DNA of 64,000 nt from Pseudorhodobacter aquimaris (lineage in GTDB: Bacteria > Pseudomonadota > Alphaproteobacteria > Rhodobacterales > Rhodobacteraceae). A program made the translations under genes and the position numbers. The notes below the pieces were generated by a model, which saw nothing but the letters and a program-made list of their open reading frames with translations, searched no databases and was not told the DNA's origin. The DNA lies in contig NZ_LGHS01000041.1 of assembly GCF_001202025.1 (NCBI RefSeq), forward strand, positions 124,001-188,000. The letters run 5' to 3'. Below, one piece after another: positions 14,083 through 20,583 of this stretch. The first letter of the stretch is position 1. Each line of letters opens with the position of its first letter.

Positions 14083-14172
14083 GGAGAGGTGCCGGAGTGG
14101 TCGAACGGGGCGGTCTCGAAAACCGTTGAGCCTTCACGGGTTCCCAGGGTTCGAATCCCTGTCTCTCCGCCA
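14083..14172 (+). tRNA. tRNA-Ser (anticodon CGA)
   Basis: A 90-nt class II tRNA with encoded CCA. The acceptor arms GGAGAGG (14083-14089) and TCTCTCC (14162-14168) pair with one G-U, and the discriminator is G14169, as expected for serine. The anticodon loop CTCGAAA places CGA at 14117-14119, which reads UCG. The T-arm CAGGGTTCGAATCCCTG is canonical, and the extra arm is long. The 3' end from 14159 is the left copy of the 14-bp repeat that bounds the element to its right, so integration left the gene intact. Confidence 0.96.
14159..14172 (+). repeat. attL: 14-bp direct repeat at the tRNA 3' end
   Basis: CTGTCTCTCCGCCA occurs here and exactly once more, at 20570-20583, in the same orientation. 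The bases on both sides differ between the copies, so the exact core is 14 bp. Placement at the 3' end of a tRNA is the usual target of P4-type integrases. Confidence 0.88.
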
Positions 14173-14227
14173 CATTTTCTTTTTAAGTTATTGATTTAGA
14201 TGGAAAAAATGATAATTTCACTTAGTT

Positions 14228-14247
14228 GATCCCCCGTTCGATCCCCC
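14228..14247 (+). promoter_or_regulatory. Paired octamer, candidate integrase arm sites (left)
   Basis: GATCCCCC at 14228-14235 and again at 14240-14247, with a 4-bp spacer (12-bp period). The same paired octamer with the same spacing occurs at the right end (20429-20448) and nowhere else that I noticed. It starts 55 bp inside attL. Position at both ends and direct repetition are what arm-type binding sites of a tyrosine integrase look like. Confidence 0.6.
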
Positions 14248-14419
14248 ATCGAATTCTGGAACTCCTAAGAACTTAATGTTGATCGCAGCAAGTTAACACC
14301 TAAAATTCCATTGTGCTTCCGCGTTCTTAATGTGGACTGATGTTATCACGTCACATTAAGGTAGCTGTATATCTGAGGTGCCACGGGCTCCAAAAGCAAT
14401 CTGAGAGAGAATTCAAAAC

Positions 14420-14710
14420 ATGGTAAAGCTAAGTGATATTGACTTAAATGAGGTTAAAGAATTCTATTGTCACGGAGGTGAAGAAGGTTACAGAACTGTT
14501 ACTGTGGAGCGGACTATAAAAGTTCTCACGCAAAATTATGATCGCGGGAACAGCAAGGCGCCCATCACATCAATCAACTTATTCTTGGAAGAAGGTGGAG
14601 CGGTAATTCGACATAATGGTCAGCTTGTAGTGGTTGAAACCGGTGAGATCCTAGCTCCATATCGTGCCTGCATGATGGACAAGTCTGTTGTGGTGGTAGA
14701 CGCAAATTAG
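14420..14710 (+). CDS. Hypothetical protein, element cargo
   Basis: 96 residues, not recognised. Clearly lower GC than the chromosome, as expected of acquired DNA. GAGAGA lies upstream of the ATG at somewhat long spacing. The protein is mixed charged and hydrophobic, probably soluble and beta-rich in the C-terminal half (SINLFLEEGGAVIRHNGQLV, then VVETGEILAPYRA), without signal peptide or membrane segment. It is convergent with the secreted protein gene at 14839-15417; the interspersed repeat 14807-14832 lies between them. Possible cargo, defence component or regulator; nothing in the sequence decides. Confidence 0.6.
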   Translation: MVKLSDIDLNEVKEFYCHGGEEGYRTVTVERTIKVLTQNYDRGNSKAPITSINLFLEEGGAVIRHNGQLVVVETGEILAPYRACMMDKSVVVVDAN

Positions 14711-14806
14711 ACCTTATGGGATTTGCAGTTTCCCTACATTCACCGATTTTTATCCTGCATTGTGGAAGGAGCGGCGGATACGAAACTGCAATCCCGCCGC
14801 CCTATG

Positions 14807-14832
14807 CTGCTAATCCCGCTAATCTGCTAATC
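14807..14832 (+). repeat. TGCTAATC-type short repeat cluster, copy 1
   Basis: Three TAATC units in CTGCTAATCC, then CGCTAATC, then TGCTAATC. The minus strand of the integrase gene at 19610-19636 carries almost the same sequence (one substitution and one extra base over 27 nt). This copy lies in the non-coding gap between the two cargo genes. Confidence 0.7.
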
Positions 14833-14838
14833 TATGTC

Positions 14839-15417
14839 TTAATCTACATATGCCAAAAACGAGGTTCCAAGCAAACAAAATGCCTCGGCTCCGTCCTCTT
14901 CGCGCAAAAAACCAGAAACGCCCGTTATATCACTAAAGAGAATAGGAACGATCATCTGAAATTTTTGGTATCCAGCGTACCCACCATAAATATTCTTTGC
15001 GTTGTATTCTCCGCAAACCGCAACATGAAATGGCGATCCACTCCTCGCAATGGGTATCTGGTACGAATTTGTGATTGTAATTTTCGCTGTATCTGGGTCC
15101 AAGAGGCCAGACTTTACCTCTTTGAAAACGGCTTCTTTCATGGTGTTCGTTAGCCCTACTTGCTTTTCCAGAGGCCATCTTACCATGTGCGCGACAATCT
15201 GATCTCTGCTTTGCCCAACGCTGTACTTCGTTGCGTAGTCTTGCATAGCTTTTTTAGTCTTAGGTCCGAATATACCGTCGGCTTTTTCGTCGAGCATCCT
15301 TTCTTGTCGAAGTCGTGTTTGAAACGCTTGCTCAAAACTAAATGTTTGCGATGAGGCTATATCTGGTAATGTTAGAGCAATTGAAAGCGTAATAAACATA
15401 GCGGGATTTTTTGCCAT
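14839..15417 (-). CDS. Secreted protein with peptidoglycan-binding-like N-terminal segment
   Basis: 192 residues. Signal peptide at 1-23 (AMFITLSIALTLPDIASSQT). The next segment, LRQERMLDEKADGIFGPKTK followed by KAMQDYATKY, resembles the core of a PG_binding_1 repeat (DG-FGP-T-KA). The C-terminal half (PFHVAVCGEYNAKNIYGGYA, then GYQKFQMIVP) looks like a compact secreted domain with two cysteines (VCG and FCLL) that could form a disulfide. Function unknown; the first half suggests attachment to the cell wall. Low GC and its place in the tRNA-proximal slot mark it as cargo. It is preceded by an AT-rich region with its likely promoter. Confidence 0.75.
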   Translation of the reverse strand: MAKNPAMFITLSIALTLPDIASSQTFSFEQAFQTRLRQERMLDEKADGIFGPKTKKAMQDYATKYSVGQSRDQIVAHMVRWPLEKQVGLTNTMKEAVFKEVKSGLLDPDTAKITITNSYQIPIARSGSPFHVAVCGEYNAKNIYGGYAGYQKFQMIVPILFSDITGVSGFLREEDGAEAFCLLGTSFLAYVD

Positions 15418-15595
15418 AATCGGTCCTCATCTTAAAATACCGCAGAAAAACTATACTGCGATATTTTTATATTGTGTTTTAAATTGTTTAGTGAACTATT
15501 GACTAGAATGGTTGGCAGCGTAACCGGTTATTATTGGCTAGGCATTTCAGAGGAATGGTAATGCCTAGCCGCTTTACTTGCTAGTGCTTTGAATA

Positions 15596-17088
15596 TCAGG
15601 TCGCCTTGTTTGTTGCGATTTTGTAGGCTTCTTTGCGTGCGCTTCCCCGTATCACAGCGCCAGCGTCTAGCTTAACAAGCCAGCCAGCATCTTCAAGGGT
15701 TTTGATTGCAGCTTTCGCCGCTTTCAATTCCCGCAATTGATTCGGGCCAGACTGCACCACTTCACTTGGTAGGATCTCTGGGTGTTGCCACTTGTCCAGC
15801 AACCAAACCCGCAAGCTTTCGGCCTTGGCGGTTTCGGCTGATATGATTGCCGCATCTTTCAGGCGCAGGGCTTCGTTCAAGTAGAACTCTGCCAGTTCCA
15901 CGGCATCTGTCATCGTTGCCGCTTCCACTTGCCTTGCATCAAGATCAGGCCAGAGCGTTAGAACCGCTGCAATCCGTGCCGCGTGTTCGGCGGCTTTGGA
16001 TGCATAACCCGTAACACCTGCATAGATCCCGCTGCCATCCATCGCTGTTTCGACCTTGTCCGAGAACTGGATCAAAACGTCACGCGCTTGTGCTGACAAT
16101 GGCAAAACGCGGGGCGAGAGAGCGCGTGTCTGTTCATCCATTGGCATTGCCGTTTCAAGTATAGCTGTCAGGCGTTTTGAGAACGCGCCCAGCGCAGCCG
16201 GGTTAGTGCGTGTCTTGGCATGTAGCCTTGTGCCAATCGTGCTTGGCGGTTCTGTGATCAAAAAGCGTGGTAAAAACCCCGTTTCGGCTGTCAGTGGATC
16301 CGCCATGAAGTCGCGCAGCACAGCGGGTTGCGCCATCAAGTGAATAGCAAGCCTACGCCCAAACAGAGTGCTGCACCCATCCCCAGATCGTGTGCGCTGG
16401 ATCGGGTTGCCCTGCCATAGATCATTGAGCGCGGCCAAAGTTTTAGTCCTTTGGTCTTTGGACATTGCAAAGCCGCCAAGGAACTGCCCGCCTTCATCCG
16501 AGAACAAGCCTATGCTTGGTTGCCCTTCTGTCAGTTTGCGCACCAACCCTTCAAAGGTCGGTTCGGACACTGTGCGATCCGTAGATGGCGGTGGCGTAGG
16601 TTCTGGGCCTAACGCTTCCAAATCGGCACGCGCACTTGCTGCAGCAACCTTGTCTTTGGCTTTGCCCGCGTCATGAACACATTTCTTGTGTTGTGCTTCC
16701 CATACAGCAAACGCATTTTTGTAGCGATCTATATCACCCCGTTGGGTGTCTGCCTGTTCTTTTTCAAACATCCGCAAGCTTTCCATCAAGGGTGCGTCAC
16801 ACTTGATTTGCGTTCACCTGAAAGTGCTATCGTCAGGCAGTAAAGCGTGCTTGGCCTGTTGCCGCCAAGGGTTTCAACATCCGCAAAACTTTGCACAGCT
16901 AAGGAGGCAACCGACAAAGCGGATTGCGCAGGAATTGCCATAGGGGCTTGGGTTTGGCCTTGTACGGCCTCTACCACCTCTCTGAGCGGCCCTAGCGCGT
17001 GAATGGGATAGGGCGCGCCTTGGGGGATAGAGCGCACAAGCGGTTGCGGGCCTTCGGCCTTGAATGGTGTTGGGGTGATTGCGTTCAT
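15596..17088 (-). pseudogene. DUF3987 (primase/helicase-like) gene with a single-base deletion
   Basis: The N-terminal 100 codons (start 17088) end in YCLTIALSGERKSSV and then run out of frame; the rest continues from about 16797 in the next frame as (DA)PLMESLRMFEKEQADTQRGD and onward for about 400 codons. Adding one G after GTG at 16800 joins the two into an uninterrupted DUF3987 protein of nearly 500 residues. DUF3987 proteins are found with toprim primases in integrative elements and probably act in element replication. The start overlaps the primase stop (ATGA at 17085-17088). Either a true inactivating mutation or a sequencing error. Confidence 0.85.
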
Positions 17089-17972
17089 GCTGCACCGCCT
17101 TTCATGTTCAAATAATCATTCCAATCTTGTCCTTGCGGGGCGGGAAGCAGGGACACCTCCCAGCCCAGCGCGCTTGCCCTTTGCGCCAATGCCTGAGCCG
17201 CCCTTAATCCTGCGCCGTTGTCGTCACTGTCAGAAGCTATGATCATCTTGTGAGGCAAGGCAGGCAGGGAAAGCCCCTGCATCCCAGAGGTGGAAAGCGC
17301 CGCCCAGATCATCGCAGGGCCATCCAGCAAGCCACTGGCAAGCGATAGAGCCGTTTCAGTGCCTTCAGTGATAACCAGCGGCCCCGCACCATCCGTCAGC
17401 CTCACAGCACCGCCTTTGCAGGTGCCTAGCATTGCCTTGTTCGGGCTTAGATCTGCCTTAGCGCCGCTTGCATCCAAATAGGTGCGATGCACGGCAAACG
17501 CTTCGGCCCCTTCGATCCGTGCTACCATTGCAGGAACGCGCTGGGCGCTATGGTGCCAGCATTCAGGACTGAACCGTAAAGCTGAGGGCAAGGCGCAAGT
17601 AATGCCCCGCCGCCGCAAGTAAGTTTCCGCCAAAGTGCCTGCAATCGGCTGGGCGCTGTCCCAGATCCCCCGCGCTTGGGTTGCACGTTGGACCAGTTTG
17701 GCTTTTTCCTGCCTGCGCCGTCTTGCCAACTCGGCTGGATCGGGCGGGGTGTAGGTGCTGCGCCCTTCGATCAACCCCATGCCCTTGAGGGCATCCAGAA
17801 TATCCAAGAAGTCACAGCCCGCATGGCAATGCGCCAAAAGCTGCCCCTGTGCGCCTTCAGACAAGCTGAGGGCCGGGGTTTTGGTGTTGTGGTGCGCTGG
17901 GCAATAGGCAAGGCCGTAGCCCCCATGCCAGCGCCCCTTGAGAGCGGTTGTGATCTGCTTTGCATCGCTCAT
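17085..17972 (-). CDS. Toprim-domain primase (element replication)
   Basis: 295 residues. An N-terminal zinc-finger-like part (YCPAHHNTKTPALSLSEG followed by LLAHCHAGCDFLDILDAL) resembles the CHC2 finger of DnaG-type primases. A helical linker follows, then a toprim fold from about residue 200 with the acidic motifs VITEGTETALSLASGL (Glu) and KMIIASDSDDNGAGLRAAQA (DxD). It synthesises primers for element replication by family analogy. Overlaps the 52-residue ORF upstream and the DUF3987 gene downstream, each by an ATGA, so the set alpA-ORF-primase-DUF3987 is one translationally coupled operon. Confidence 0.88.
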   Translation of the reverse strand: MSDAKQITTALKGRWHGGYGLAYCPAHHNTKTPALSLSEGAQGQLLAHCHAGCDFLDILDALKGMGLIEGRSTYTPPDPAELARRRRQEKAKLVQRATQARGIWDSAQPIAGTLAETYLRRRGITCALPSALRFSPECWHHSAQRVPAMVARIEGAEAFAVHRTYLDASGAKADLSPNKAMLGTCKGGAVRLTDGAGPLVITEGTETALSLASGLLDGPAMIWAALSTSGMQGLSLPALPHKMIIASDSDDNGAGLRAAQALAQRASALGWEVSLLPAPQGQDWNDYLNMKGGAA

Positions 17973-18127
17973 TGTGCCGCCCCCATGATCGGGGAAGGAA
18001 CAAGCATCGTTTGACGCTTGGTTTCGCTTTGTGCTAGGTAACTCTCAATCGCCAGTGACCATTGGCAAGAATTATGAGCTGGATCCTGCGCCAACAGGGT
18101 TCGGCTCTTTTCTGTTTTAAGTCCCAT
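17969..18127 (-). CDS. 52-residue coupled ORF between alpA and primase
   Basis: ATG at 18127, TGA at 17969-17971, overlapping the primase ATG by one ATGA. It starts 2 bp after the alpA stop. The product begins MGLKTEKSRTLLAQDP and ends SPIMGAAQ, with one Cys and no membrane segment. I do not recognise it. The tight fit into both neighbouring genes is the main evidence that it is translated; it could also act only to couple translation of alpA to the primase gene. Confidence 0.6.
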   Translation of the reverse strand: MGLKTEKSRTLLAQDPAHNSCQWSLAIESYLAQSETKRQTMLVPSPIMGAAQ

Positions 18128-18129
18128 AA

Positions 18130-18315
18130 TCAAACCTCATTGCGAAGTTTGAGGCCATCAAGCCAAGCGGCAATATCAGCTTCACGCCATCCAACTGCAC
18201 GCGGTCCCAGCTTCACAGCTTGGGGGAATGTGCCTTTAGACATAGCCGCATAGATTGTAGATCGGGAAAGCCCTGTCAGTGCCTCAACGGCGGGCCGTTT
18301 TAAGATTTTAGTCAC
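18130..18315 (-). CDS. AlpA-family helix-turn-helix regulator
   Basis: 61 residues from the GTG at 18315, chosen because AAAGGA lies at good spacing in front of it; the upstream TTG at 18321 would add only two residues. The sequence RPAVEALTGLSRSTIYAAMS followed by KGTFPQAVKLGPRAVGWREA and DIAAWL is the complete MerR-like winged-helix of AlpA/excisionase proteins. Such proteins control excision or the replication operon of P4-like elements. It is the first gene of the alpA-primase operon and lies next to an operator-like palindrome. Confidence 0.9.
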   Translation of the reverse strand: MTKILKRPAVEALTGLSRSTIYAAMSKGTFPQAVKLGPRAVGWREADIAAWLDGLKLRNEV

Positions 18316-18365
18316 AATCAAATCCTTTCAGTTTGTTGAATGTGACCTGTAATTAGGGGCAAACC

Positions 18366-18403
18366 TTTGGACAGTGGATTGCAATGTCCAAACAAAATGT
18401 CCA
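18366..18403. promoter_or_regulatory. Operator-like inverted repeat upstream of alpA
   Basis: TTTGGACA (18366-18373), 11 bp, TGTCCAAA (18385-18392), a perfect 8-bp inverted repeat, followed by a third half site TGTCCA at 18398-18403. It lies 50-90 bp before the alpA start, where a repressor of the replication operon would bind. The regulator could be AlpA itself or the 258-residue protein whose gene ends at 18422; neither is shown. Confidence 0.6.
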
Positions 18404-18421
18404 TGCTTGAATGAAGGGTCT

Positions 18422-19198
18422 TTAAGGATTGAAAATCCTTTTGTTTCTTGTCCAGAGTTTTTGGTTTGCGCCTCGACTGCTCCCTAGACCATTCTCAAAA
18501 GTCAGTTTGGCCGCTTGATTGATCGATATGTTTCGATCACTCATTTCTTTCATGGATTTAAGGATTTGAACGGTGCGGGGGCCTAAAGCTTGTTTCCGCG
18601 CCACCCCCCCTGCCTTCCTTGCTTTCTGGCCTCGAATATCTCGTTTTATCATCAATCCAAAGTCTCGCCGCCATTCGCGGTCTTTTTCGAATTCTGCTAT
18701 CTGAAAGATGCGAACGAGGTGGCCCTGATAGGTATTCTCCCTCTCTGTGTTGATCATGGCGCAAAGGTGGTGAATTTGTCCGGCATACCATTCCTCTGAA
18801 AACACATCTGCTGCATTCATGGCGTAGACATCCCCTAAACCGCTGCCATGACTTGGCTTGCCAAGTTCTTCCCAAAGCCGCCTTCCCTCAATGGGGTCTT
18901 TGTCCGCAACAAGTACAATATCCCGCTCAATCTCGTTTGTAGGTTCGCGGGTTTTGGGGATCCAGCCTAGCCCTACTGTGAATTTTACAGCCATGTCTGG
19001 ATCTGGATACCCGCTCGCTATGAGGGTTTCTTTGCTTTCTTTCATCAAACCTTCGATGTGATCCCAAAATGGATTTTCGGGCGGACCGTCCCAGTCTTTC
19101 CGCGTGCCATCCTCTTTGAGGGGTTGTCTATGGATCCGAGTGTGAATGCCATCACTACCCAAAACCGTTACTTTCTCATTTGGCTTGGGTTCAGTCAT
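18422..19198 (-). CDS. Hypothetical protein linked to integrase
   Basis: 258 residues, not recognised. No signal peptide or membrane segment. The N-terminal half is acidic and Pro-rich (KDWDGPPENPFWDHIEGLMK, and GYPDPDMAVKFTVGLGWIP). The C-terminal 80 residues are basic and helical (IKRDIRGQKARKAGGVARKQ, then ISINQAAKLTFENGLGSSRG and KLWTRNKRI), as expected for nucleic-acid binding. Its ATG is only 10 bp after the integrase stop, so the two are co-transcribed. A role in excision or control is possible by position alone. Confidence 0.75.
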   Translation of the reverse strand: MTEPKPNEKVTVLGSDGIHTRIHRQPLKEDGTRKDWDGPPENPFWDHIEGLMKESKETLIASGYPDPDMAVKFTVGLGWIPKTREPTNEIERDIVLVADKDPIEGRRLWEELGKPSHGSGLGDVYAMNAADVFSEEWYAGQIHHLCAMINTERENTYQGHLVRIFQIAEFEKDREWRRDFGLMIKRDIRGQKARKAGGVARKQALGPRTVQILKSMKEMSDRNISINQAAKLTFENGLGSSRGANQKLWTRNKRIFNP

Positions 19199-19208
19199 GA
19201 ATGCGGTC

Positions 19209-20423
19209 CTACAGTTTCGTGGCGACTAAGTAGCTGCCCCAATCATCCATCAACGTACGCCGCTTTTCAAACAGATCCGAGCGTGCATAAGCTGCTTCGG
19301 AGGCATCCTTGATGCTATGGGCAAGCGCAGCTTCGGCCACTTCGCGTGAAACGTTTGTCTTTTCCTGCACCCATGTGCGGAATGACGTTCTAAAGCCGTG
19401 AATATCAACATCAAAGCCCAGTTCCTTTACGAGCTTTGAAAGGGTCATGTCTGACAAGGGTTTGCCCTGCTTTGTCCCTGCAAACACAAGATCCCCGCCA
19501 TCGCTCAAGTCTTTAGCTTCCCGCAAGATATCTACGGCACGCGCACAAAGGGGAACACGGTGTTCGCGCTTCATTTTCATGCGCTGGGCGGGAATAACCC
19601 ATTCGGCCTGATTAGCAGGATTAGCGGAATTAGCAGGGGGGCTGTCGTCAAACGTGATTTCAGTCCAAACCGCTTCCCGAACTTCACCAGAGCGTGCCGC
19701 TGTCAGGATCAGGAACTCAAGAGCAAGCTTTGTGGTGCGTCCAGCGCCGGAAGCTTTCGCCACCTCAATGCAGGTCGCTACATCGCGATAAGACAGCGCC
19801 TTGCGGTGTTTCACTGCCTGGGTTTGCTTGGGAAGGGCTTGGCCTATGTTTTGGGCGGGATTGTCTTGCCGCCACCCTTGAGCAATGCCCCATTTCATCA
19901 CTGTGCCAATCCGTTGCCGTACCCGCCGCGCTGTTTCCTGCTTTGTAAGCCAGATCGGGGTAAGAACTGCCAGCACGTCTGCTGTCGTGATTTCACCAAT
20001 TTTATATTTCCCTAATGCGGGAAATGCGTATGTTTCCAGAGTGCTGATAAACTGCGCCGCGTGCTTGGGGTTTGACCAGCTTGGCTTTTGCAGTTCATGT
20101 ACCTTGCGGGCGGCTTCTTCAAAGGTCAGCACAGCTTGATTTTCGCGCTTGGCTTTCAGGGGATCGCCGCCAGAACGTGCAAGCTTTAGGTTTTGCAGTG
20201 CTGCTTCCCGCGCTTCGCCCAAACTTACTAGATCGGCACTGCCCAATCCCATTTCAGTGCGCTTGCCCCTAATCGTGATCCGTTGCACCCACTGCTTTGC
20301 GCCATTGGTTTTGACTTTGAGAAAAAGGCCATTACCATCGAAGTGCTTGCCTGCTTCTGTTGTCGTGCGGACAAAAGCGGCTGTCAGCGCCTTCTTCGGA
20401 GTTCGAATCCCTGTTTCAGCCAT
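19209..20423 (-). CDS. int: P4-type tyrosine integrase
   Basis: 404 residues. N-terminal arm-binding domain of the DUF4102 type (KHFDGNGLFLKVKTNGAKQW, then GLGSADLVSLGEAREAALQN), a SAM-like core-binding part (about 105-190), and the catalytic domain with Arg in ILTAARSGEVREAVWTEI, HxxR as HGFRTSFRTW, His in ALAHSIKDASEAAYARS and Tyr in the same segment. It catalyses recombination at tRNA-Ser. Two oddities: the first 8 codons coincide with a tRNA T-arm-like sequence (20401-20414), and codons for ANSANPANQ are made of the TGCTAATCC-type repeat (19610-19636). Its start codon lies beside the right paired octamer, so integrase binding could repress its own gene. Confidence 0.95.
   Translation of the reverse strand: MAETGIRTPKKALTAAFVRTTTEAGKHFDGNGLFLKVKTNGAKQWVQRITIRGKRTEMGLGSADLVSLGEAREAALQNLKLARSGGDPLKAKRENQAVLTFEEAARKVHELQKPSWSNPKHAAQFISTLETYAFPALGKYKIGEITTADVLAVLTPIWLTKQETARRVRQRIGTVMKWGIAQGWRQDNPAQNIGQALPKQTQAVKHRKALSYRDVATCIEVAKASGAGRTTKLALEFLILTAARSGEVREAVWTEITFDDSPPANSANPANQAEWVIPAQRMKMKREHRVPLCARAVDILREAKDLSDGGDLVFAGTKQGKPLSDMTLSKLVKELGFDVDIHGFRTSFRTWVQEKTNVSREVAEAALAHSIKDASEAAYARSDLFEKRRTLMDDWGSYLVATKL
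19610..19636 (-). repeat. TGCTAATCC-type short repeat cluster, copy 2, inside int
   Basis: On the minus strand CTGCTAATTCC, GCTAATCC, TGCTAATC, coding for ANSANPAN in the integrase. It differs from 14807-14832 by one substitution and one additional base. The reading frame is kept, so the repeat was accommodated as a linker between the conserved blocks of the catalytic domain. Confidence 0.7.
20401..20414 (+). repeat. tRNA T-arm-like sequence at the integrase start
   Basis: GTTCGAATCCCTGT is identical to 14149-14162 in the tRNA-Ser T-arm and continues TTCAGCCA in place of CTCTCCGCCA. On the coding strand it gives the integrase residues GIRTP. Together with attR (20570-20583) both halves of the tRNA 3' end are found at the right border but 170 bp apart. 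Confidence 0.6.
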
Positions 20424-20428
20424 CTAAC

Positions 20429-20448
20429 GATCCCCCAAATGATCCCCC
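20429..20448 (+). promoter_or_regulatory. Paired octamer, candidate integrase arm sites (right)
   Basis: GATCCCCC at 20429-20436 and 20441-20448 with a 4-bp spacer. Same unit, spacing and orientation as the left pair. It lies 5-25 bp upstream of the int start codon, where bound integrase would block its own expression. Confidence 0.6.
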
Positions 20449-20569
20449 ACTATATCCATGAATACACTAGATCTTACAGGAAGTCACGGCACATAAATTT
20501 ATGCTAATGCTCTGGCAATGCTAACTTTATTAGATTTTCTTGGACCGCTTTGGAAGTGAAGCAGGCAGA

Positions 20570-20583
20570 CTGTCTCTCCGCCA
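20570..20583 (+). repeat. attR: 14-bp direct repeat
   Basis: CTGTCTCTCCGCCA, exact copy of 14159-14172. It marks the right border of the element; the bases that follow are AT-rich chromosomal spacer. Confidence 0.85.

Follow-up and report, generated by a model that had tools for sequence, protein, structure and literature searches.

A compact island of PICMI-like gene order in a serine tRNA gene of Pseudorhodobacter aquimaris, a candidate minimal phage satellite

Minimal satellites and the element in tRNA-Ser(CGA)

Phage-inducible chromosomal minimalist islands (PICMI) of the Vibrionaceae are minimal phage satellites (PMC10803314), and they are the nearest match to the element considered here, which occupies positions 14,159 to 20,583 of a 64,000-nucleotide stretch (the window) of contig NZ_LGHS01000041.1 from Pseudorhodobacter aquimaris. 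PICMI115, of 6.1 kb, carries int, iolg (overlapping int by ATGA), alpA, up1, prim, up2 and fis in that order; its excision needs iolg, alpA and int, its replication needs prim, and the early regulon that phage induces in PICMIs comprises alpA, up1 and prim (PMC10803314). The iolg/icg genes form 13 families and 35 subfamilies, and defence genes lie between prim and fis (PMC10803314). According to the portions of that paper on which we draw, the search model combines PF00589, PF05930 and PF13148 (DUF3987 as primase), and complete PICMIs are reported only in Vibrio and never without fis, their hallmark. A first scan of complete genomes, in which fis was optional, returned 135 elements carrying int, alpA and prim, 67 of them in Vibrionaceae (PMC10803314), so that look-alikes elsewhere had already been noticed by the PICMI authors.

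We consider it reasonably likely that the window element is a minimal, helper-dependent, phage-satellite-like island of PICMI-like build lodged in a tRNA gene. The element, its attachment (att) sites and its gene order are read from the sequence, and from these we infer helper dependence and satellite behavior; the lineage is probably one of satellites. The order is attR, int, a 258-amino-acid (aa) gene (X), alpA, a small open reading frame (ORF), a Toprim primase gene, DUF3987, cargo and tRNA (Table 1). An earlier interpretation made from the letters alone (the sequence-only reading) had named a P4-type integrase, AlpA, primase and DUF3987, all of which are recovered by Pfam, and had overlooked a frameshift in DUF3987. 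The genes for alpA, the 54-aa ORF, the primase and the first piece of DUF3987 overlap their neighbors by 4 nt, as expected for a single operon. Additionally, among the nine proteins scanned there is no structural, packaging, relaxase or conjugation family (Pfam and PHROG; relaxase and conjugation by Pfam), in line with the earlier claim that structural and conjugation genes are missing. PADLOC returned no match for the element proteins except weak helix-turn-helix matches of AlpA, and the 54-aa ORF has no Pfam or PHROG family match.

In the mechanism that we propose, a helper phage would switch on the operon of alpA, small ORF, primase and DUF3987, whereupon AlpA, Int and the 258-aa slot protein would excise the element and the primase and DUF3987 would replicate it. 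The helper would then package it, probably as a concatemer because no capsid gene is present, while the tRNA-proximal slot would hold accessory genes, of anti-phage function in some relatives. The window copy is probably in the integrated state and may still be able to excise; its own replication is probably poor or dead because DUF3987 is frameshifted, unless the frameshift is a sequencing error. We tentatively go further and propose that minimal satellites of Alphaproteobacteria include a branch of their own at tRNA genes, whose int-coupled gene could be swapped and might set excision control or helper specificity; this broader proposal is rather less probable than its contrary.

Table 1. 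Features of the element and its target gene (positions in the window).
Feature	Positions	Strand	Basis or remark
tRNA-Ser(CGA), integration target	14083-14172	+	ARAGORN
attL core, final 14 nt of the tRNA-Ser(CGA) gene, CTGTCTCTCCGCCA	14159-14172	+	
Left arm-type sites, two GATCCCCC repeats 12 bp apart	14228-14247	+	
Cargo 1, 96-aa protein	14420-14710	+	no family match
Cargo 2, 192 aa	14839-15417	-	weak peptidoglycan (PG)-binding region and phrog_2320 region
DUF3987 helicase/primase gene, frameshifted	15596-17088	-	PF13148 in both halves
Toprim primase, DUF7146	17085-17972	-	PF13362/PF23639
54-aa ORF between alpA and primase, position of PICMI up1	17969-18133	-	
AlpA regulator/excisionase	18130-18321	-	PF05930, 3.4e-20
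258-aa protein, variable int-alpA slot (iolg/icg-like)	18422-19198	-	starts 11 nt after int
P4-type tyrosine integrase, 404 aa	19209-20423	-	Pfam PF00589, PF22022, PF13356
Right arm-type sites, two GATCCCCC repeats 12 bp apart	20429-20448	+	
attR core, exact CTGTCTCTCCGCCA copy of the tRNA 3' end	20570-20583	+	

Upstream of alpA we observed an operator-like inverted repeat (TTTGGACA-11 nt-TGTCCAAA, 18366-18392), of which there is no sign in the short region upstream of alpA in L053, the closest relative; TTTGGACATTGCAA recurs inside DUF3987 (16457-16470). A perfect 16-nt inverted repeat also pairs 15545-15560, behind DUF3987, with 18786-18801, inside the 258-aa gene.

Attachment sites, relatives and the broken DUF3987 frame

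The element measures 6.4 kb from core to core, and the second, exact core lies 147 nt upstream of the int start. Among 22 relatives fetched with long flanks, 12 carry a second copy of the tRNA tail (14-22 nt) upstream of int, with targets tRNA-Ser(GCT) (four), Ser(TGA) (three), Ser(GGA) (one), Ser(CGA) (one), Arg(CCG) (two) and Ala(CGC) (one); because the same arrangement recurs in these relatives, the repeat is not a chance match. Two of the 22 (L066, L018) have a tRNA without tail repeat, and in eight no tRNA was found on that strand in the fetched stretch, several of which end at contig edges. A set of 80 named loci contained 17 with at least 14 nt of a tRNA tail repeated within 400 nt upstream of int, two of these being elements already in the first set and the L152 match (tRNA-Asn) being atypical. 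Five (L087, L111, L115, L143, L151) have a tRNA on that strand with no tail repeat of at least 14 nt, and the rest have no tRNA in the stretch covered.

Arm-type repeats were found inside both ends of the window element. Counted inward from the left end, the motif TCCCC[CA] occurs at +57 to +60 in 12 of 13 elements (L069 is the sole exception), frequently followed by another copy 12 nt further in, and in 11 of 13 a forward motif lies at -154 to -129 from the right end. Furthermore, a genome of the same genus (G400) has an empty site, in which sequence similar to the right flank of the window follows directly after the tRNA (local alignment score 57, against a maximum of 28 in 200 shuffles). 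Three same-genus genomes in which the tRNA is present (G391, G398, G399) show no similarity to the right flank behind it, and no tRNA was found in two more same-genus stretches. We take the element ends to be genuine att sites. These results uphold the proposal of the sequence-only reading that a compact, satellite-like integrative element with a 14-bp repeat at both ends lies at tRNA-Ser(CGA); that reading would have been refuted by close relatives with the same genes but no att repeats, which is not what was found, the repeat recurring in both sets of relatives.

A T-arm-like stretch in the first int codons (20401-20417, encoding GIRTP) matches the tRNA (14149-14165) at 16 of 17 nt. It was set aside as a second att site: the peptide GIRTPKKA is retained in L053 although some of its codons differ, a (R/H)PEKA-like peptide stands there in most other integrases, and it is the copy at 20570 that has the position conserved in relatives. 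The stretch is either a fossil att site or a product of chance. Elsewhere in the same genome, further P4-type integrases lie beside tRNA-Ser(GCT) and tRNA-Ser(GGA) (L002 on contig C69 and L003 on contig C20), and several serine tRNA genes of this genome may be occupied.

The closest relative, L053 in genome G049, sits at tRNA-Ser(GCT) and shares 86% identity in int, 84% in primase, 87% in AlpA and 75-82% in DUF3987, with 65% over 43 aa in the 54-aa ORF; it has neither the 258-aa protein nor the cargo in common with the window. The order int-X-alpA-prim-DUF3987 is kept in L053, L055 and several other loci, and the hosts of close relatives are mostly Rhodobacterales. A DUF3987 match occurs in 31 of 248 genomes of the family, the own genome included. 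Twenty of the other 30 were examined at the locus and two (G049 with L053, G101 with L055) were covered already; the eight left out (G024, G056, G071, G079, G114, G162, G213, G245) include contig-end pieces and, in G162, a fragmentary copy with a stop inside. At the 20 loci, an int relative lies upstream on the same strand within 8 kb in 12 (three of them only 22-24% identical), a primase is present in 12, and a tRNA tail repeat in six (Arg two, Ser one, Leu one, Thr two).

DUF3987 in the window consists of two ORFs, 16786-17088 and 15596-16789, the frame ending just behind a Walker A-like SGERKSS and resuming in another. The frame is unbroken at this region in all nine relatives compared (L069, which gave no match, was dropped) and extends over 497-897 aa in all 20 further loci, with SGERK(S/T) in an unbroken frame in each of these 29 relatives, no pair of which is 90% identical. 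Programmed frameshifting is disfavored, since all 29 relatives read straight through. The break may be a true lesion or a sequencing error, and in the former case the window copy may be replication-defective.

The int-linked slot and the cargo

The 258-aa protein is not cargo: it occupies the variable slot between int and alpA and is a core slot gene. Neither Pfam nor PHROG gives it a family, and no match was found in plasmids; PDB sequence searches with it and with both cargo proteins returned 0 matches, and single-sequence structure predictions reached a mean predicted local distance difference test score (pLDDT) of only 39.7 for it and 37.0 for cargo 2. Weak matches were found in seven of 393 other genomes of the family, C-terminal in six, and all seven adjoin an integrase, three of them also standing beside a clear AlpA. 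L226, from a genome outside those seven, adds an eighth, short match (35 residues; E 2.5e-4 within the locus), placed between its int and AlpA; this locus has a very different int, with just 24% identity, and a 45-bp repeat at tRNA-Thr(TGT).

The set of distinct loci numbers 99, and 54 of these have AlpA no more than 4 kb from int. Among these 54, an ORF shares 4 nt with int at 20 loci, 1 nt at seven and some other length at nine, and in five, including the window (11 nt), an ORF begins within 30 nt after int. Overlaps of 1 or 4 nt (27/54) exceed both controls, 15.7% of 1866 background frames (p = 5e-9) and 7 of 36 loci without AlpA (p = 0.003), with p values that are rough because the loci are related and the background includes both strands, shadow frames and int itself. 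The slot ORFs of at least 75 aa number 45 and fall into 29 single-linkage families (one of 15 members, one of three and 27 singletons); the ORFs were called automatically, and a few of them look spurious. The slot appears to change faster than int or the replication genes, because L053 keeps its similar int and primase but has an unrelated slot protein.

Next to the tRNA, the sequence-only reading had described a small unknown protein and a secreted, wall-binding-like protein. The former description stands: cargo 1 has no Pfam, PHROG or PADLOC match, has no relative in 247 other family genomes and has one plasmid relative, in Tritonibacter mobilis (40%). The label given to cargo 2 is weaker: its wall/PG-binding matches reach ~16 bits, where Pfam requires 23 and 24.6. 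In PHROG it matches best to phrog_2320, a family of unknown function, and it is probably exported, judging by eye from its N-terminus. Partial relatives of cargo 2 occur in four of 247 other family genomes, 13 phage records and nine plasmid records, and the two cargo genes were found as a pair nowhere else, where the sequence-only reading had thought that their presence at unrelated places would tell against it. In each of three phages inspected, the relative is a lone gene in the neighborhood of tail, lysis or integrase genes; by eye, that in L051 adjoins an ORF reading like a phage repressor, and that in L049 resembles a lipoprotein gene, no phage gene being visible nearby. Genes expressed by a prophage on behalf of its host would commonly sit in such places, with which an envelope-level effect on other phages would fit, without being proven.

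The expectation that this slot carries anti-phage genes holds for some relatives: in a PADLOC scan of 10 hand-picked cargo proteins from seven elements, three elements had a type IIG restriction enzyme (L058, L079) or AbiU (L099). For the window element itself it does not hold, as neither cargo gene matches a known defence family. L064, an element at tRNA-Ser(GCT), has a DnaE-type polymerase and an ImuB-like gene as apparent cargo, possibly a mobile mutagenesis cassette, and the cargo of L053 includes a CoiA-like nuclease.

Alternatives and comparison with described systems

Several observations weigh against a minimal satellite. The 12 repeat-bearing relatives span 3.8-14.0 kb, so not all are minimal; in 45 of the 99 loci no AlpA is recognizable up to 4 kb from int, and 13 of the 54 with AlpA lack a slot ORF that overlaps int or begins within 30 nt after it. 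The Toprim/DUF3987 module accompanies only two of 22 and seven of 80 (DUF3987 matches) integrase relatives, which indicates that the integrase clade is wider than the build of the window element. Another protein of 144-234 aa recurs in eight of 13 relatives clustered with the window (by automatic ORFs, some spurious in G+C-rich loci) and looks like an alternative replication module, which L058 and L079 carry. In viral-contig scans only two contigs had a related integrase, and neither the primase (window and L053) nor the 258-aa protein had a relative there; related integrases at ~40% identity also serve temperate phages. Against phage records, DUF3987 of L053 matched four, all distant (24-26% identity). 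Additionally, the likeness to PICMI115 (PMC10803314) is one of gene order and protein families.

The frameshift, the lack of packaging genes recognized by Pfam and PHROG, the A+T-rich cargo (G+C 42%, the window as a whole having 58%) and the silence of the viral contigs on the primase and the 258-aa protein could also be explained by a decayed or ordinary integrase-borne island that spreads through chance transduction, natural transformation or a mobilizable origin of transfer (oriT) and is served by no dedicated helper. We regard this as unlikely, though it is the foremost of the rivals: DUF3987 is unbroken in 29 of 29 relatives, the architecture recurs in PICMI order, and no relaxase or type IV secretion family was found by Pfam among the nine proteins, a search that did not extend to oriT alone.

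In L149 and L152, whose integrases are 46-47% identical to that of the window, terminase, portal and capsid genes lie inside the interval from tRNA to int. The large terminase subunits match phrog_9 (1.9e-35 and 2.9e-34); neither portal match reaches the Pfam cut-off, nor does the capsid match of L149. These are tRNA-anchored elements of ~10 kb in an alphaproteobacterial and a Dehalococcoidia metagenome-assembled genome, and they are possibly capsid-forming satellites. They raise the prospect that the window element is the remnant of such a satellite, or of a temperate prophage, after loss of the structural genes, which we judge quite improbable: ten proteins of five closer relatives (L053, L055, L058, L064, L104; most proteins of other relatives are unscanned) include no structural family by Pfam, and the cargo slot of the window shows no phage structural gene by Pfam or PHROG.

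P4-like satellites have capsid and derepression genes such as sid, delta and psu. Despite its P4-type integrase, AlpA and primase, the element is most improbably a P4-like satellite or phage-inducible chromosomal island (PICI) in the strict sense, as its gene order is that of PICMI and the nine proteins include no capsid-remodelling or terminase-redirecting gene (neither the sid, delta and psu families nor packaging-redirecting genes of PICIs such as terS and ppi by Pfam and PHROG, which remote homologues could escape). Of the earlier assignment to a P4-like or PICI-like kind, what survives is the small, satellite-like character.

In the literature searched, none of the matches listed describes a PICMI-like family that targets tRNA genes in Rhodobacterales, subscription papers being mostly outside that literature. 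The PICMI-type gene order is of a known kind; the tRNA target and, in the window copy, the frameshifted DUF3987 set it apart. If the reading as a helper-dependent satellite is true, a PICMI-ordered tRNA family in Rhodobacterales would make minimal satellites more general among marine bacteria and would offer new hosts for studying how so few genes hijack a phage. The hypervariable int-linked gene also becomes a module open to experiment, since similar integrases are found in nature with different versions of it alongside.

Two further systems share parts of this design. The genomic islands at transfer-messenger RNA (tmRNA) genes, with IntY and AlpA and one of them moved by a jumbo phage (PMC12595487), likewise have a tyrosine integrase, AlpA, a 14-bp core at an RNA gene and putative defence cargo, and are without autonomous transfer genes. 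As far as the portions of that paper drawn on here describe them, they differ in being much larger (~18 kb of shared sequence alone), in their tmRNA site, in having int and alpA at opposite ends, and in having RadC/YqaJ among the shared genes. Capsid-forming PICIs (PMC11389934, drawn on in part) resemble the integrase relatives L149 and L152, which sit with terminase, portal and capsid genes, whereas these genes are absent from the window element.

The PICMIs (PMC10803314, likewise in the portions drawn on) come closest. Shared features are the size (6.4 kb against 6.1 kb for PICMI115), the flanking direct repeats with one copy upstream of int, the lack of recognized capsid or packaging genes, and the succession of int, an overlapping or contiguous variable gene, alpA, a small gene, a DUF3987-type primase, accessory genes and the target gene. 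The three search families PF00589, PF05930 and, for the DUF3987/DUF5906 primase, PF13148 occur together, with DUF3987 split by the frameshift in the window, the 258-aa gene is contiguous with int as the variable gene of PICMIs is, and defence genes lie in the tRNA- or fis-proximal slot of some members, here among the relatives of the window element. In contrast, the target is the 3' end of tRNA-Ser (Ser, Arg, Ala, Thr or Leu in relatives) and not fis, a separate Toprim primase gene stands beside DUF3987, DUF3987 itself is frameshifted, and the close relatives are mostly in Rhodobacterales; phage induction is reported for PICMIs and is a prediction for the window element. As read here, the element is not a PICMI by the definition of those authors, though it is built like one.

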